A DNA stretch of 45,179 nt from positions 1 through 45,179 of the forward strand of contig JANYGI010000172.1 in the NCBI GenBank assembly GCA_025362495.1, given 5' to 3'. The notes under the pieces are model-generated. The model saw nothing but the letters and a program-made list of their open reading frames with translations. It searched no databases and was not told where the DNA came from. Position 1 is the first letter of the stretch, and each line of letters starts with the position of its first letter. This DNA is from Byssovorax sp. Lineage in GTDB: Bacteria; Myxococcota_A; Polyangia; Polyangiales; Polyangiaceae. Below, piece after piece: positions 28,338-36,136 of this stretch. Both the position numbers and the translations under genes were made by a program.

Positions 28338-30194
28338 TCACTCGTGGACGACGACGATCGTGCCGCGGTTTTCCGGGGTCGACCAGACGGCGTGCCAGCC
28401 GCGCGGGAGGTGCGGCTCGCTCCAGAAGAACACGCGCTTGGCGTCGAGCGGCGAGAGGTTCACGCAGCCGTGGCTCATCTCGTGGCCGAAGTTGTTGTGC
28501 CAGAAGGCCGCGTGGAGCGCGTACGAGCCCTCGAAATACTGCACGTAGGGCACGTCCTCGATGCTGTACGGGAGGTCGCTCGCGGCGCGGCCGTCGCCGT
28601 CCATCGTCACGGCGATGTGCTTCTCGCGGATGCGGAACGTCCCCTGGATCGTCGAGTGATCCTTCTCCTTGATCGACGACTTTTTCCCGGGGGAAATCAG
28701 CGTCGCGAAGATCGGCTTGTCGCCCTCGAGCGCGACCATCGTCTTCCGCGTGAGGTTGACGTCGATCCATTTTTCGCCGGGCGCGAGGTCGGCGGGGCGC
28801 GGGCCCTGCTCGGTGATCGTGCCGTCGATGGCCTTCATCCACCAGCCCTCGGTGGTCTGCCTGTAGACGATGGTCTTGTTGGTCGTCGTCGCGCCGGTGA
28901 GGCCGACGGCGGTGAAGCGAGGCGCCGCGCCGTTGACGGAGATCTTCTTCTGATCGGCGTCGAAGTCGTACTTCGAGGCCTTGGTCGCGGTGATGAAGCC
29001 GATCTGCTTCACGCCCTCGGGGAAATCGATTCCCTGCGTCGTCGGCGGCTTGATGATCACCATCCGATCGCTCGGAGCGACGAGACCGCCGGTGGTCTTG
29101 TACCAGCTGCGCCCGTTCCACCCGAAGGGCTTGTCCACCGCGACGAAGAAGCCCTTCACCATGCGCTTGGCGATGGTCGAGTCGGAGTCTTCTTCGAGAT
29201 CGCTGAGCTTGATCTTGAGCGGTTTGCTCTTGTCGCTCGCCTGCTGCCACCAGGGCTTTTCTTCGGGCGGCGGGGCGCCCGCGTCTTCCAGGATGCCGAC
29301 GGCCTCGGCCTTGGCGATCGCGCCGGCCTTGTCGCCGGTGCCGTCGTCGGCGCCGGGCTCGGCCTGCTTCGCGTCCTCCGAAGGAGCGTTGCCGCTGCCG
29401 CCGCCGCTGGCCTCGGCGTCTTCCTTTTCCCTGGCGCGATCGGCCTTCTTCTTCGCGCGCTTCGCGGCCTCGAGGTAGGGCTCGTACTTGAGCATCTCCT
29501 CTTTCGAGGGGACGGAGCGGTAGAGCGGTGTGCCGTGCGCGGTGTTGAACGCGTACTTGTACGGGAGCACGTCCTCCAGCGCGGGGGGCGTGATCCCGAG
29601 CTTGACCTGCGGGTTGTTGAGATCGAGCGTGCCCCACTTCGCGCAGATGTAGCCGCCGTCGACGAGGTGGTACCAGCCCGAGCTGCACTTGGTCCCCGCG
29701 TCCTTGATCAGCGCCGGCTCGACCGGGACCTTGCCGCCGAGGCGCACGTAGCCGAGGATTTTCTTGCCGCCTTCGGGCTTCGCGTACACCGCCGTTTGCA
29801 GGCCCAGCGCGCCGAGGAGCGGGCCGTTGTAGGGCTTCTCGATCGGGATGCCGCTCGGGCTCGTGGCGGGCGTCGACGCGCTCGCGGGAGGCGCGGCGCT
29901 GGCGACGGCGGTGGGCTTCGCCGTCGCGCTCGGAGGCGTCGGCAGCGAGTTGCCACGCGACGAGAGCTCGGTCGACGGGCCGGGAGGCGCCTCGTTGTGG
30001 CAGCCGCTGCCCCAGGCCACCGCGCCGCCGACGACGGCCGCGACGATGAATCCCGCGACGACCGCGCCGCCGCCGCCGCCCAACGAAGCCGGAGGCGGAG
30101 CGTGCTTGCCCGATCCCGCGCGCTGATTCGCGGCCGATTTCGATCGGCTGGAGCCCTTCTCGGGAGGCGTGCGGTGGGCGTTCTGGCTGCTCAT
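28338..30194 (-). CDS. Membrane-anchored L,D-transpeptidase (YkuD domain)
   Basis: 618 residues from ATG 30192-30194; a TTG further upstream is less likely. A basic cytoplasmic tail, then one helix (about 44-62, VVAGFIVAAVVGGAVAW) ending in GSGC, which could also be lipidated. Then a 450-residue extracytoplasmic region with an Ala/Pro linker, a likely SH3-like part (about 130-210) and a Lys/Glu/Ala-rich insert (about 250-330), and finally the YkuD catalytic domain (about 470-618). The active site is complete: His561 in ALHAAFWHNNFGHEM and SHGCVN at 574-579 with nucleophile Cys577. Such enzymes form 3-3 peptidoglycan crosslinks or attach proteins to peptidoglycan. It is about twice the length of typical bacterial Ldt proteins. 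Single gene, divergent from the next one. Confidence 0.9.
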   Translation of the reverse strand: MSSQNAHRTPPEKGSSRSKSAANQRAGSGKHAPPPASLGGGGGAVVAGFIVAAVVGGAVAWGSGCHNEAPPGPSTELSSRGNSLPTPPSATAKPTAVASAAPPASASTPATSPSGIPIEKPYNGPLLGALGLQTAVYAKPEGGKKILGYVRLGGKVPVEPALIKDAGTKCSSGWYHLVDGGYICAKWGTLDLNNPQVKLGITPPALEDVLPYKYAFNTAHGTPLYRSVPSKEEMLKYEPYLEAAKRAKKKADRAREKEDAEASGGGSGNAPSEDAKQAEPGADDGTGDKAGAIAKAEAVGILEDAGAPPPEEKPWWQQASDKSKPLKIKLSDLEEDSDSTIAKRMVKGFFVAVDKPFGWNGRSWYKTTGGLVAPSDRMVIIKPPTTQGIDFPEGVKQIGFITATKASKYDFDADQKKISVNGAAPRFTAVGLTGATTTNKTIVYRQTTEGWWMKAIDGTITEQGPRPADLAPGEKWIDVNLTRKTMVALEGDKPIFATLISPGKKSSIKEKDHSTIQGTFRIREKHIAVTMDGDGRAASDLPYSIEDVPYVQYFEGSYALHAAFWHNNFGHEMSHGCVNLSPLDAKRVFFWSEPHLPRGWHAVWSTPENRGTIVVVHE

Positions 30195-30231: not shown

Positions 30232-30368
30232 GCGGGTCTTAGTACCTGGTCACTCAACTGTCGATCCAGTTCTTGGCGGTAGTTTCGCCGGGGACCCGCT
30301 CAGCGAAGCTCGTGCCACCAAGGTGCTGCGATGGATGACGTGGCGCGCGCGGCTGCTACCGTAGGCGC

Positions 30369-32708: not shown

Positions 32709-32954
32709 GCGCGCTCGTATACCCCATCGAGGGCCATTCGCCCGTGGCGGCTTGGCGCGCGCCCGTGAGGCGCGGCGGCGCGCGTGAGGCGTTCGTGCTC
32801 ACGCGCCGCCGCGGTGACCGTGCTCGCCGCCCCGGAGTCACCTCGCCGCATGATCGCGTCGATCGCCGATTTTTCCAGGCCCGCCATTCGAAATCATGCG
32901 CGTTCACGCCGCCGTACGCCGCCAGGATCGCAAGGGGCATCACCGCCCAGGGTT

Positions 32955-32970
32955 CGGCACACGCCGTGCT
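32955..32970 (+). promoter_or_regulatory. Sigma-54-like element before the kinase gene
   Basis: CGGCACACGCCGTGCT keeps GG and GC ten bases apart and the CAC core, but departs from TGGCACGN4TTGCW at three positions. The predicted +1 near 32981 is four bases before the ATG. It is the weakest of the four such elements in this region. Confidence 0.4.
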
Positions 32971-32984
32971 CGAGGCGAAGCACC

Positions 32985-34571
32985 ATGGCGAGCATCAAAG
33001 AGAGCACGACGGCGCACACCGGGGCCGACCACTACCACGAGGGCCAGCTCCTCGGTGGCAAGTACGAGCTGCTCAGCAAGGCCGGCGAGGGCGCGACGGG
33101 CGCCGTGTGGATCGCGCAGAACACGGCTCTCCAGTCGAAGGTGGCAATCAAGCTCGTCCACCCCGAGATGCGTTTGCCGGTGATCGTCGAGCGGGTGATG
33201 CGCGAGGCGCGGGCCGCGGCGCGGCTCAACCACTCTGCCATCGTGCGCGTCTTCGATCTCGGCGAGACGCCGAGCGGCGATCCCTACATCGTGATGGAGC
33301 TGCTCGAGGGCGAGTCGCTGCGGACGATGCTCGATCGCAAGGTCCGCCTCACGCCGGAGGAGGCGCTCTCCGTGCTGCTGCCGCTCGCGAGCGCGATGCA
33401 CCTCGCGCACGAAGAGGGCATCATCCACCGCGATATCAAGCCTGACAACATCATGCTCGCGCGCATCGACGGCGGCCGGATCCAGCCCAAGCTCGTCGAC
33501 TTCGGGATCGCCAAGCTGAGCTTCGGTGATCCGGGCGGCGTCAACACCGGAGCGCTGGTGATTGGCACTCCCGGGTACATGTCGCCCGAGCAGGCCGGCG
33601 GGGGCGAGCTCGTCGATCAGCGCACCGACATCTGGTCGTTCTGCGCGCTGTTCTACGAGATGGTCTCCGGTGATACGCCGTTTCCCTCGGTCAATACCCT
33701 CGAGGCGCTGGTCGCGGTCATCCGTGATCCGGTGCCCTCGCTGCTGGGGGAGCGCGTCAAGGACGCGGCGCTATGGACCATCCTCGAGCGTGGTTTGCGG
33801 AAGGATCCCCGCGAGCGCTGGAGCAACATGCGTGATCTAGGCGAGGCGCTCACCGCGTGGCTCGCCGCGCGCGGCGTGGCCGAGGATGTCTCCGGTGTTC
33901 CGCTGCGCGCTCTCTGGCTCGGGGCGCCCCCGTCGCGGCGGATGATCGACGTTCCCAGGCCGCTCGCCGGCGCCGGCTCAGGTCGCATCGACTCTCCCTT
34001 TCGCGCTCGCTCGGAGGAGCCCGTCGTGGCCAGCTCCGCGCTGTTCTCGGAGGTCACTGGCAGGCAAGGCGCCGCGGCGCCGCGCTCGCGTTACGCCGTG
34101 ATGGCCGGCCTCGCGCTGCTCACCGCAGCGCTGGCGTGGAAGATCGCGTTCTCGCCCGGCGCGCACGCGGCGGCGGCTTCAAGCATCAACGCAGCTCCCG
34201 CCGCAGCGATGGTGACCGCGGCGCCTGCGCCGGCGCCTTCTGCTGCTCCGTCGTCGATCGCGCCGGTCGCCTCGGCAAGCGCCGTCGCGGTCGCTCCCGA
34301 GCCGATGGTCGCTGCTCCGATCGTCGCTCACCCGGCGCCGAAGACGGTCGCGGTGAAGTGGGGCAAAGTGCCCACCAGCGCGCCCTCGCCTCACGCCAGC
34401 GCGGCGCCCATTGCGCCCGTTGCGCCTGCTGCTCCCGCGACGAGCGCGGATCCGACGAAGTCGACCTGGGTCGTTCCCGGCGGCGCCTCGTCGGCCACCG
34501 CTCCTTCCACCCCGGTCCCCCCGCCTGCCGCGCTACCGACTCCGATCCGCGAGCCTGTCGACGGGATCTAG
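32985..34571 (+). CDS. Membrane-anchored eukaryotic-type Ser/Thr protein kinase
   Basis: 528 residues from ATG 32985; an in-frame extension back to 32784 has no kinase homology. Kinase domain at about 27-295: glycine loop GEGATGAVW (34-42), Lys56 in VAIKLV, Glu74, catalytic HRDIKPDN (148-155, Asp150), DFG at 172-174 and activation segment GTPGYMSPEQ (194-203). All catalytic residues are present, so it should be active. A juxtamembrane stretch follows, then one helix (about 370-388) and a long Ala/Pro/Ser-rich extracytoplasmic tail of about 140 residues without PASTA or other sensor domains. This PknB-like architecture is abundant in Myxococcota. Substrate unknown. Confidence 0.95.
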   Translation: MASIKESTTAHTGADHYHEGQLLGGKYELLSKAGEGATGAVWIAQNTALQSKVAIKLVHPEMRLPVIVERVMREARAAARLNHSAIVRVFDLGETPSGDPYIVMELLEGESLRTMLDRKVRLTPEEALSVLLPLASAMHLAHEEGIIHRDIKPDNIMLARIDGGRIQPKLVDFGIAKLSFGDPGGVNTGALVIGTPGYMSPEQAGGGELVDQRTDIWSFCALFYEMVSGDTPFPSVNTLEALVAVIRDPVPSLLGERVKDAALWTILERGLRKDPRERWSNMRDLGEALTAWLAARGVAEDVSGVPLRALWLGAPPSRRMIDVPRPLAGAGSGRIDSPFRARSEEPVVASSALFSEVTGRQGAAAPRSRYAVMAGLALLTAALAWKIAFSPGAHAAAASSINAAPAAAMVTAAPAPAPSAAPSSIAPVASASAVAVAPEPMVAAPIVAHPAPKTVAVKWGKVPTSAPSPHASAAPIAPVAPAAPATSADPTKSTWVVPGGASSATAPSTPVPPPAALPTPIREPVDGI

Positions 34572-34718
34572 TGCCGCCCGCCGGCTCGCGCCGCGCAAGA
34601 ATATCTCGCCCGGCGCAGCCCCTGCGCCAGATGCGGAGCAGCGCACTCGAAGCGCTCGCTCCGCCTCGTGCGTTGGGCTCAGCGCATCTCCAGCGTCGGG
34701 CCTTTCTGCCGGGCACCA

Positions 34719-34734
34719 CGGCACGGTCGTTGCG
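34719..34734 (+). promoter_or_regulatory. Sigma-54 (-24/-12) promoter before the eRF1-like gene
   Basis: CGGCACGGTCGTTGCG matches GGCACGN4TTGC completely in its core, with GG at 34720-34721 and GC at 34732-34733, ten bases apart. The predicted +1 is near 34745, two bases before the ATG at 34747. Confidence 0.65.
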
Positions 34735-34746
34735 AGCATGGCGGAC

Positions 34747-35136
34747 ATGTCGACCTATCATGCTGCCGTCTGGCTCGATCACAACGAAGCTCGCATCTTT
34801 CACGTCACCCCGACCACCTTCGACGAGAAGACCATCCACTCCGACAAGGGGCATACGCAGCTCCATCGCAAAGGGGGCTCGGACGACGGGCACCGCGCCA
34901 AGGAGAGCCAGGCTTATTATCACGACGTCGTGACGGCCCTGTCCGACGCCGAAGAGGTCCTCGTCCTCGGGCCCGCGACGGCCAAGCTCGAGCTGATCAA
35001 GCACGCGCATCGCCACGATCCCAAGCTCGAAGCGAAGATCATCGGCGTCGAGACCGTCGATCATCCCACCGACGGACAGCTCATCGCCTACATGCGCAAG
35101 TACTTCAAGGAAGCGGATCTCAAGCATCCCTCCTGA
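34747..35136 (+). CDS. eRF1-like 'translational machinery' protein (baeRF-type)
   Basis: 129 residues. Start taken at ATG 34747 (MSTYHAAVWLDHNEAR), which fits the family N-terminus; an ATG nine bases earlier lies almost inside the promoter. Motifs: VWLDHNEARIFHV at the start, EEVLVLGPATAKLELIKH in the middle and GVETVDHPTDGQLIAYMRKYF at the end. Short proteins of this type are annotated as translational machinery proteins and are related to the third domain of eRF1/Pelota (L7Ae/L30-like fold). They lack the peptide-release GGQ domain, so they may sense stalled or hibernating ribosomes (inference from the family, not shown). The stretch KGHTQLHRKGGSDDGHR is His/Lys-rich. It is one of four neighbouring genes with sigma-54-like promoters. 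Confidence 0.75.
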   Translation: MSTYHAAVWLDHNEARIFHVTPTTFDEKTIHSDKGHTQLHRKGGSDDGHRAKESQAYYHDVVTALSDAEEVLVLGPATAKLELIKHAHRHDPKLEAKIIGVETVDHPTDGQLIAYMRKYFKEADLKHPS

Positions 35137-35266
35137 GCGCTCGCGAGCGGTCGACGGCGACCTCGCGACTCTGCGCGGCTCGGCTCGCGGACAGATCCAG
35201 TATCGGACGTCCGCGGCCGGGACAACTCCCCTCCACCACCGGTTTGCTTTTCGTGGCTTTGCCTGC

Positions 35267-35282
35267 CGGCACGCCCGTTGCT
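35267..35282 (+). promoter_or_regulatory. Sigma-54 (-24/-12) promoter before the glycine-zipper gene
   Basis: CGGCACGCCCGTTGCT agrees with TGGCACGN4TTGCW at every defined base but the first. GG (35268-35269) and GC (35280-35281) are ten bases apart. The predicted +1 is near 35293, three bases before the ATG at 35296. Confidence 0.7.
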
Positions 35283-35295
35283 CGTGTTTTCGAGC

Positions 35296-35730
35296 ATGAA
35301 CGACCACAGCAACCTGGACAAGACCGGCCAAACCACCAATGCGACTGCGGCCGAGACGTCGGCAGATGAGTTCGAGCATTCGCTCCGCCACCGTTCGATG
35401 GCGGCTCCCGTCGCGCTCGATGCGGCAGCCGGCGCCGCTGCGGGCGCCCTCGCGGGCACGCTCGCAGGCCCCGTGGGAATGGCCATCGGCGCCGTGATCG
35501 GCGGCTTCGTCGGCGGCGCCGCCGGCGCGGCTGTCGAGACGGGGGATCGCGAGAACAGCGCGCACGAAGCGGAGCTCGATCGCGCTATCGGCGTCAGCGG
35601 CGGCGACATCGGCGAGGCCAAACCCGGCCAGCCGGCGAGCCACGGGCGCTTCCAAGCCGCGGCGCTGGGCGCCACCGACAGCGAGCCCGAGTCGAGCGAC
35701 GGGCCGATCCAGAACGTCGATGGCGGCTGA
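35296..35730 (+). CDS. Glycine-zipper domain protein
   Basis: 144 residues. A polar N-terminus rich in Thr/Asn/His, then a Gly/Ala-rich double membrane-like hairpin at about 40-80 (AAAGALAGTLAGPVGMAIG, GGFVGGAAGAA) with GxxxG spacing typical of glycine zippers, then an acidic, disordered C-terminus. No signal peptide, so it may insert into the inner membrane from the cytoplasm or associate peripherally. Proteins of this type are often induced by stress or in stationary phase. The ATG has no Shine-Dalgarno sequence and lies about three bases from the predicted sigma-54 transcript start. Codon use is a little less G/C-biased than in neighbours. Function unknown. Confidence 0.7.
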   Translation: MNDHSNLDKTGQTTNATAAETSADEFEHSLRHRSMAAPVALDAAAGAAAGALAGTLAGPVGMAIGAVIGGFVGGAAGAAVETGDRENSAHEAELDRAIGVSGGDIGEAKPGQPASHGRFQAAALGATDSEPESSDGPIQNVDGG

Positions 35731-35928
35731 GCCGGCGCCCTCACGGCCGCGCGACGCGACGCTGGATGAACCCGAGAGACCCGAAGAGGTCCCCGATGCC
35801 TGCCGCAAACTCACCTCGATCACACTTCATGTCGAATCGTGTGGTGACACGTTTGCGGGGTGTGGCGTTCCTGCGATGAGCTCCGTGCTTCAGGGAGCAA
35901 ATAGCGGCAATTTCGCGTGATCCAGCGA

Positions 35929-35944
35929 TGGCACACCGGCTGCT
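35929..35944 (+). promoter_or_regulatory. Sigma-54 (-24/-12) promoter before the Lmo0937-type gene
   Basis: TGGCACACCGGCTGCT: GG (35930-35931) and GC (35942-35943) ten bases apart, only two consensus mismatches. The predicted +1 near 35955 gives a leader of about 32 bases with an ACAGGAG ribosome binding site, a conventional layout unlike the two neighbouring genes. Confidence 0.7.
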
Positions 35945-35986
35945 AAGAGGGATTGCACAACGCTCATCTGACAACAGGAGATCATC

Positions 35987-36136
35987 ATGCTCTGGACTGC
36001 CGCCGTCGTTCTTTTGGTTCTGTGGGTTCTCGGCCTCGCGACCTCGTACACCGTCGGAGGGTTGATTCACATTCTCCTGGTGCTCGCCGTCATCTCCATC
36101 GCGTTCCAGCTGATCTCCGGTCGTCGCACTGCATGA
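35987..36136 (+). CDS. Lmo0937-family small membrane protein
   Basis: 49 residues: MLWTAAVVLLVLWVLGLATS begins it, and a second helix ends before SGRRTA. The ribosome binding site ACAGGAG is six bases from the ATG. Sequence and size match the Lmo0937/DUF5670 family of two-helix membrane proteins (typical form MLWTI...LLVLWLLGL...GGxIHILLVIA), widely spread in stress-exposed bacteria. Role unknown, thought to be a general stress or membrane-integrity protein. It is the third small gene in a row with its own sigma-54 promoter. Confidence 0.85.
   Translation: MLWTAAVVLLVLWVLGLATSYTVGGLIHILLVLAVISIAFQLISGRRTA

Follow-up and report, generated by a model that had tools for sequence, protein, structure and literature searches.

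Introduction

In Myxococcus xanthus, the four-component NmpRSTU relay joins a protoglobin kinase (NmpU) and an NtrC-like response regulator (NmpR) to sigma-54 promoters (PMC11841059). The NmpR site is GCGCA-N5-TGCGC, which occurs in pairs with a preferred gap of 14-15 nt; bound sites that are 5 and 24 nt apart were also reported. NmpR bound seven promoters, including those of CBS, universal stress protein (USP), cbb3-linked, and HemN/hemerythrin genes. Expression from the reporters that were tested depended on NmpR. Here, we compare this system to a 45,179-nt stretch of DNA from Byssovorax sp. (contig JANYGI010000172.1), which we will call the window. Four neighboring genes in the window, for a Ser/Thr protein kinase, an eRF1-like protein, a glycine-zipper protein, and a small DUF5670 protein, are each preceded by a sigma-54-like -24/-12 element.

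The host genome (G000, 10.8 Mb) resembles the Nmp system in having a protoglobin histidine kinase, an NtrC-like regulator, putative sigma-54 promoters, and pairs of GCGCA-N5-TGCGC. The USP, CBS, hemerythrin, and cbb3 genes that NmpRSTU targets are also in related islands in the relatives that we searched (38 genomes, many of them with fragmented assemblies). Instead of a four-component relay, G000 has a kinase and a regulator that are adjacent, with overlapping ends, on contig 65. The gap between paired sites is 13 nt in the window and 4 and 6 nt on contig 65, rather than 14-15 nt. Also, an eRF1-domain gene is among the predicted targets here, while the terms “eRF1” and “host attachment” are absent from the main text of PMC11841059.

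The eRF1-like protein itself is reminiscent of the hibernation factors Balon and Rv2629, which have the same middle-domain fold and no GGQ (PMC10901736). Balon genes are typically found in stress-response operons, and the mycobacterial homologues are hypoxia-activated (PMC10901736). Balon has three domains, whereas the eRF1-like protein has just one, of 129 amino acids, and lacks the decoding-center and EF-Tu domains. Standalone baeRF-1 is also a lone RNase H-fold release-factor domain without the catalytic Gln (PMC6514570). Finally, for the leaderless mRNAs of Deinococcus-Thermus (PMC12340547) and Bradyrhizobium (PMC4842269), the promoter abuts the open reading frame, as it does here, but those promoters have a -10 or extended -10 element (RpoD-like) instead of a sigma-54 -24/-12 element.

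Our overall account, in which we have somewhat better than even confidence, is that the genes have separate sigma-54 promoters, that the eRF1-like gene belongs to an Nmp-type low-oxygen regulon, and that its product is of a dormancy type. Each promoter would serve its adjacent gene, within a large sigma-54 regulon (the kinase element only possibly). As oxygen falls, the protoglobin histidine kinase and the NtrC-like response regulator of contig 65 would open the eRF1-like promoter, with the regulator acting through paired GCGCA-N5-TGCGC sites that begin roughly 80-105 bp before the sigma-54 element. The product is predicted to protect ribosomes or keep them dormant by binding near the peptidyl-transferase center of the large subunit. 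The promoters of the glycine-zipper and DUF5670 genes, and perhaps that of the kinase gene, would answer to other activators. Seen in this way, the motif matches make up a circuit that can be tested, with a sensor, a regulator, sites, and a gene.

Putative sigma-54 promoters

The original prediction reported four elements with GG-N10-GC, and all of them are present on the + strand, at 32955, 34719, 35267, and 35929. We scored them by the number of matches to the 12 specified positions of TGGCACGN4TTGCW, and we counted distances from the first base of the element to the start codon. The element of the eRF1-like gene (34719-34734, CGGCACGGTCGTTGCG) scores 10/12 and is 28 nt from the ATG at 34747 (19 nt from another ATG at 34738). 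That of the glycine-zipper gene (35267-35282, CGGCACGCCCGTTGCT) scores 11/12 and is 29 nt from the ATG at 35296, and that of the DUF5670 gene (35929-35944, TGGCACACCGGCTGCT) scores 10/12 and is 58 nt from the ATG at 35987. The element of the kinase gene (32955-32970, CGGCACACGCCGTGCT), which is uncertain, scores 9/12 and is 30 nt from the ATG at 32985. The last three elements were said to match GGCACGN4TTGC or nearly so: the match is exact for the eRF1-like and glycine-zipper genes and has two mismatches for the DUF5670 gene.

We also compared these genes, all on the + strand, to their predicted identities. The kinase gene (32985-34571) matches Pkinase (E = 7.7e-42), and on reading its translation, the C-terminus has a hydrophobic stretch and a Pro/Ala-rich tail. 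The eRF1-like gene (34747-35136) encodes a lone eRF1/Pelota/Balon middle domain. The glycine-zipper protein (35296-35730, 144 amino acids) matches Gly-zipper_Omp from Pfam with E = 2.2e-5 and 24.7 bits, which is just below the cut-off of 25. The small membrane protein (35987-36136, 49 amino acids) matches DUF5670 and lmo0937 (E = 1.1e-15 and 5.9e-16), and AGGAG precedes its start codon.

G000 has one rpoN and 68 matches to the activator domain PF00158 (Sigma54_activat), the last few of which are weak. The consensus occurs with at most one mismatch at 74 places in G000, of which two are in the window. Among the other 72, 68 are intergenic and 57 are within 220 nt upstream of a correctly oriented gene, as compared to 927 and 760 of 9,000 random places in the sampled stretches. 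(We used our own gene finder, a script based on codon usage, so start codons, and hence spacings, carry error.) We also sampled 280 upstream regions from 30 other 20-kb stretches of G000, with the reversed motif as the control for this and other motif counts. Scores of at least 10 were found for 15 of these upstream regions, versus 2 with the reversed motif. In a stricter test, which demanded GG and GC within 75 nt, 8 of 457 genes had such scores, versus 2 for the reversed motif. The sigma-54 signal is positional: it emerges before genes, and not until the score reaches 10. Close matches to the consensus in G000 seem mostly to be promoters, and the eRF1-like, glycine-zipper, and DUF5670 elements fit among them.

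If we shuffle the letters of the 75 nt upstream of each gene, the observed score is reached in 1.4% (kinase), 0.37% (eRF1-like), 0.04% (glycine-zipper), and 0.15% (DUF5670) of shuffles. The set of elements had been described as denser than expected by chance. Three consecutive genes with scores of at least 10 would arise anywhere in such a genome with P ~ 0.05 (from about 300 simulations, with genes treated as independent), and the longest run of sampled genes with scores of at least 9 is two. Overall, the original observation was confirmed in part.

The elements of the eRF1-like, glycine-zipper, and DUF5670 genes are partly conserved in relatives. For the eRF1-like family, we compared nine sequences (the window's and eight relatives from seven genomes). 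An element with a score of at least 9 precedes six of the nine genes, and in five of those six it lies 27-28 nt before the Met codon. Among the relatives of the glycine-zipper gene, the score is 11 for L018, 10 for L019 and L017, and 9 for L015 and L020; GA replaces GG in L013 and L014, and L016 has no element. For the relatives of the DUF5670 gene, the element is clear in L021 (11) and weaker in L023 and L025 (9), while no element was seen upstream of L024, L026, or L027. In L024's genome, the DUF5670 gene comes after a CBS gene that has an 11/12 element.

Several results weigh against reading all four elements as promoters. With a threshold of 9, the motif is found no more often than its reverse (29 vs. 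28 of 280 upstream regions, or 14 vs. 13 of 457 genes), so the score of the kinase element does not distinguish it from chance, and the 30-nt spacing is its sole support. This also weakens the case for two other elements that score 9, at the contig-65 kinase promoter and at the eRF1-like orthologue in G031. Plain counts of the consensus show no enrichment, whether with up to three mismatches in the window (41 places, as compared to 58 expected) or with up to two mismatches in G000 (773 places, as compared to 1,780 for the reversed control), so we do not use such counts as evidence for promoters. Three of the nine eRF1-like genes lack a good site (6/12 in G024, 8/12 in G007, and 8/12 in G001). 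We also searched by name for homologues of the eRF1-like protein and found 80 (L200-L279), which are mostly proteobacterial; many of these loci are related and hence not independent. Just one of the 80 has a sigma-54 score of 10/12, and the three that are titled Myxococcales score 7, 9, and 7. We reject the idea that sigma-54 control is a general trait of this family.

The weak kinase element and the lack of enrichment across the window or the genome are what would be expected if the elements were chance matches, or the sites of another protein, rather than promoters. We consider this to be very unlikely, given that 68 of the 72 close matches are intergenic, that high scores are concentrated upstream of genes (15 vs. 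2 of 280), and that elements are also found before orthologues. The promoter reading seems very likely for the eRF1-like and glycine-zipper genes and somewhat less so for the DUF5670 gene. For the kinase gene, the chances that the element is a promoter are about even.

Two other features lie nearby. A fifth strong sigma-54-like element (TGGCACGAGCTTCGCT, 11/12) is at 30302-30317 on the - strand, upstream of a gene for a YkuD L,D-transpeptidase (28338-30194, - strand). At 32759-32813, between the kinase gene and its divergent neighbor, there are two copies of a 14-nt direct repeat that start 19 nt apart, as well as a 12-nt perfect inverted repeat; together, these are a candidate site for another activator.

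NmpR-type sites and a probable low-oxygen regulon

Upstream of the eRF1-like gene, we found matches to GCGCA-N5-TGCGC, which we scored out of 10. On the + strand, S1 (34613-34627) is a perfect match, S2 (34641-34655) scores 9 and has its first base 78 nt upstream of the sigma-54 element, and a third palindrome (34682-34696) scores 8. A pair with scores of 8 and 8 or better is present in just 1 of 276 sampled upstream regions. The kinase, glycine-zipper, and DUF5670 genes have no such pair upstream, and their best single scores are 8, 7, and 7.

G000 also encodes a plausible sensor and regulator. On contig 65, a kinase with a protoglobin domain (E = 2.7e-34) and PAS, HisKA, and HATPase domains is followed by a regulator with Response_reg, Sigma54_activat, and HTH_8 domains. 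The regulator is the genome's best match to the activator domain, and its gene overlaps the end of the kinase gene. The kinase promoter has a sigma-54-like element (score 9) and palindromes with scores of 9 and 8, while the neighboring USP gene has an element with a score of 10 and two palindromes that score 9. These paired palindromes (L163, 10081-10743 and 6907-8508) start 19 and 21 nt apart, versus 28 nt in the window, so there may be a second enhancer geometry.

Similar sites are found in the relatives. An island in G024 (L142, G024:C70:1-17000) opens with the last part of a cbb3 oxidase operon and continues with CBS, USP, OmpA, M50-CBS, glycine-zipper, DUF2383, and hemerythrin genes, several of which have sigma-54 elements and NmpR-type palindromes. 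One perfect palindrome is common to the divergent USP and OmpA promoters (at -78/-79), and another is at -74 for the hemerythrin gene; the window's S2 is also at -78. In G038 (L135, G038:C30:12000-31000), DUF2383, eRF1-like, OsmC, USP, and CBS genes each have their own sigma-54-like element (10-11/12), and neighboring divergent pairs share palindromes that score 8. In at least two of the places we examined, relatives of the eRF1-like gene adjoin USP, CBS, or OsmC genes. This neighborhood is not general: tblastn found USP genes near just 1 of the 80 named homologues, so we rejected it as a family trait.

To quantify this, we assembled 24 low-oxygen or stress genes: all nine eRF1-like genes plus genes for USP, CBS, OsmC, hemerythrin, and the protoglobin kinase. 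A palindrome that scores at least 9 is upstream of 10 of the 24, as compared to 8 of 275 background upstream regions (P = 4e-8, Fisher exact test). This comparison should be read with the knowledge that the genes were picked by function after the islands had been seen, that DUF2383 and OmpA were excluded, that 6 of the 10 USP places in G000 were used, and that the background is from G000 only. One of the 10 palindrome-bearing genes, a USP gene on contig 17, lacks a sigma-54 site.

Other observations count against placing the eRF1-like gene in an Nmp-type regulon. The gap of 13 nt between S1 and S2 is not the 14-15 nt preferred in M. xanthus. Across G000, the pattern of paired palindromes is nearly as rare as its reversed control (4 places vs. 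3). Apart from the place in the window, none of the 4 resembles a sigma-54 promoter: one falls within a gene, and for the two intergenic places, the next gene has no sigma-54 score of 9. A palindrome scoring at least 9 is found for only 3 of the 9 eRF1-like genes. Among 19 protoglobin-kinase upstream regions, including that of G000 itself, 6 have a palindrome scoring at least 9 (perfect in 2 cases) that does not overlap the best sigma-54-like place, and the rest have none. The kinship of the contig-65 regulator to NmpR rests on architecture.

Might the window simply hold separate sigma-54 circuits that are adjacent by chance, with the palindromes before the eRF1-like gene resembling NmpR sites by coincidence as well? 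The genome does have many sigma-54 promoters, the paired pattern is no commoner than its control, and few of the named homologues have sigma-54 sites. Still, we think this is unlikely, because the window's 10+9 pair stands against a single, weaker pair in 276 upstream regions, a third site is present, S2 is at the same position as in the stress promoters of G024, and the contig-65 kinase and regulator carry the same site. Given the NmpR-type palindromes and the NmpU/NmpR-like pair in the genome, the eRF1-like gene is probably a low-oxygen gene in an Nmp-type regulon, and we infer that the contig-65 regulator drives it.

The eRF1-like protein

A profile that was built from the nine eRF1-like sequences matches archaeal Pelota (E = 1.7e-6). 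The AlphaFold model of the window's protein (mean pLDDT of 82.4) aligns with the middle domains of eRF1, Pelota, and Balon, with Foldseek E values of 1e-6 to 1e-4 and Z of up to 12.4 over 125 residues (for Msmeg1130). This confirmed, at the level of the modeled fold, that the product is a free-standing eRF1/Pelota/Balon middle domain. By reading, GGQ is in none of the nine sequences. Two of the nine match baeRF_family10 from Pfam weakly (best E = 0.0084), which does not place them firmly in a named family.

We prefer ATG 34747 over ATG 34738 as the start codon. In the alignment with the eight relatives, 34747 corresponds to the Met before the conserved block, where the relatives' sequences had been trimmed by hand. 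For the G031 gene, our gene finder's start is 24 nt upstream of the Met used in the alignment.

Among the 80 named homologues, 12 have an FNR-type box (a match of at least 9/10) within 300 nt upstream, as compared to 14 of 1,641 other stretches of the same loci. These boxes point to possible control by oxygen limitation via an unrelated regulator. This suggests two unrelated links between oxygen and a dormancy-type ribosome protein: FNR-type boxes in proteobacteria, and sigma-54 with an Nmp-like enhancer here. Many of the proteobacterial homologues, which often have such boxes, are, by title, from Thiobacillus, Rhodoferax, or Comamonadaceae.

Start-codon spacing and predicted near-leaderless messages

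The kinase, eRF1-like, and glycine-zipper genes share a spacing of 28-30 nt from the element to the start codon, and by eye, none of them has a Shine-Dalgarno sequence. The DUF5670 gene has an ordinary leader with AGGAG. Transcription from sigma-54 promoters usually begins about 12 nt after the GC, so the predicted leaders are just 2-4 nt. Among the sites listed for G000, the base before the ATG is often C, so the A itself might be the first base transcribed. The eRF1-like and glycine-zipper transcripts (and that of the kinase gene, provided that its element is genuine) would start about 0-4 nt from the start codon, leaving neither a leader nor a Shine-Dalgarno sequence for translation.

This spacing is common in G000. 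At the 68 intergenic sites (which omit the four that lie inside genes), an ATG in any frame is found at offsets of 28-30 nt 12 times, and 10 of these lead into the coding frame; further downstream, there are about 1.06 ATG per offset. Across 150 matches listed for the relatives, there are 38 ATG at 28-30 nt, versus 12 expected from other offsets; these matches are from 10 of 39 genomes, two of which are of one genus, and a single place may yield several ATG. (Over all of the matches, the counts are 741 for the pattern and 327 for its reverse.) A Shine-Dalgarno-like sequence is present for none of 11 genes with a spacing of 27-31 nt, as compared to 24 of 44 others (P = 0.0012, Fisher exact test). 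We predict that the genes spaced at 28-30 nt make near-leaderless sigma-54 mRNAs, with leaders of about 0-4 nt. This spacing and the enhancer palindromes are new relative to the original prediction.

A spacing of 27-30 nt is found for 12 of the 18 low-oxygen genes whose sigma-54 element scores 9 or more, versus 12 of 68 sigma-54 sites overall (P = 1.2e-4, Fisher exact test). The 18 leave out the six of the 24 genes that score below 9 and include two that score 9, and the USP gene on contig 81 is in both of the compared sets. More speculatively, in a reading that we consider rather unlikely, this bacterial order might have a second fixed sigma-54 geometry, with 27-30 nt between the first base of the promoter and the start codon. 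This geometry would be enriched in the low-oxygen regulon, and its leaderless or near-leaderless messages (including one for a mini-Balon that may idle ribosomes) could be translated by undissociated 70S ribosomes during dormancy, as an activator-gated leaderless class. Among the titles and abstract openings in our partial coverage of the literature, we found no description of a near-leaderless sigma-54 geometry. If transcripts confirm it, this geometry would connect the tight regulation of these promoters with an unusual way of initiating translation.

One module or separate circuits

The original prediction grouped the four genes into one sigma-54 stress module. For the eRF1-like gene, a link to stress is supported, given the NmpR-type enhancer and the USP, CBS, and OsmC neighbors in relatives, and three of the four promoters are supported. 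The single module is not supported, and nothing that we saw supports a role in membrane integrity or envelope stress.

A module under a single activator would fit with the three scores of at least 10 in a row, and comparable islands of separately promoted stress genes exist in G038 and G024. However, the NmpR-type pair is upstream of the eRF1-like gene only, and a search for repeats within each upstream region (by inspection) turned up nothing in common, so the candidate of an enhancer shared by all four genes was dropped. Also, no two of the eRF1-like, glycine-zipper, and DUF5670 families are on one contig in any of the 38 relatives, with their often fragmented assemblies. With the kinase element at chance level as well, we consider a single module to be quite improbable, and separate sigma-54 promoters, with an Nmp-type enhancer at the eRF1-like gene, remain our preferred reading.

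The nearest counterpart that we saw to the window's kinase and glycine-zipper neighborhood is in G009 (L139, G009:C117:150000-169000). It contains genes for a Ser/Thr kinase, a PP2C phosphatase, CsbD, and glycine-zipper proteins, and some of these have sigma-54-like elements.

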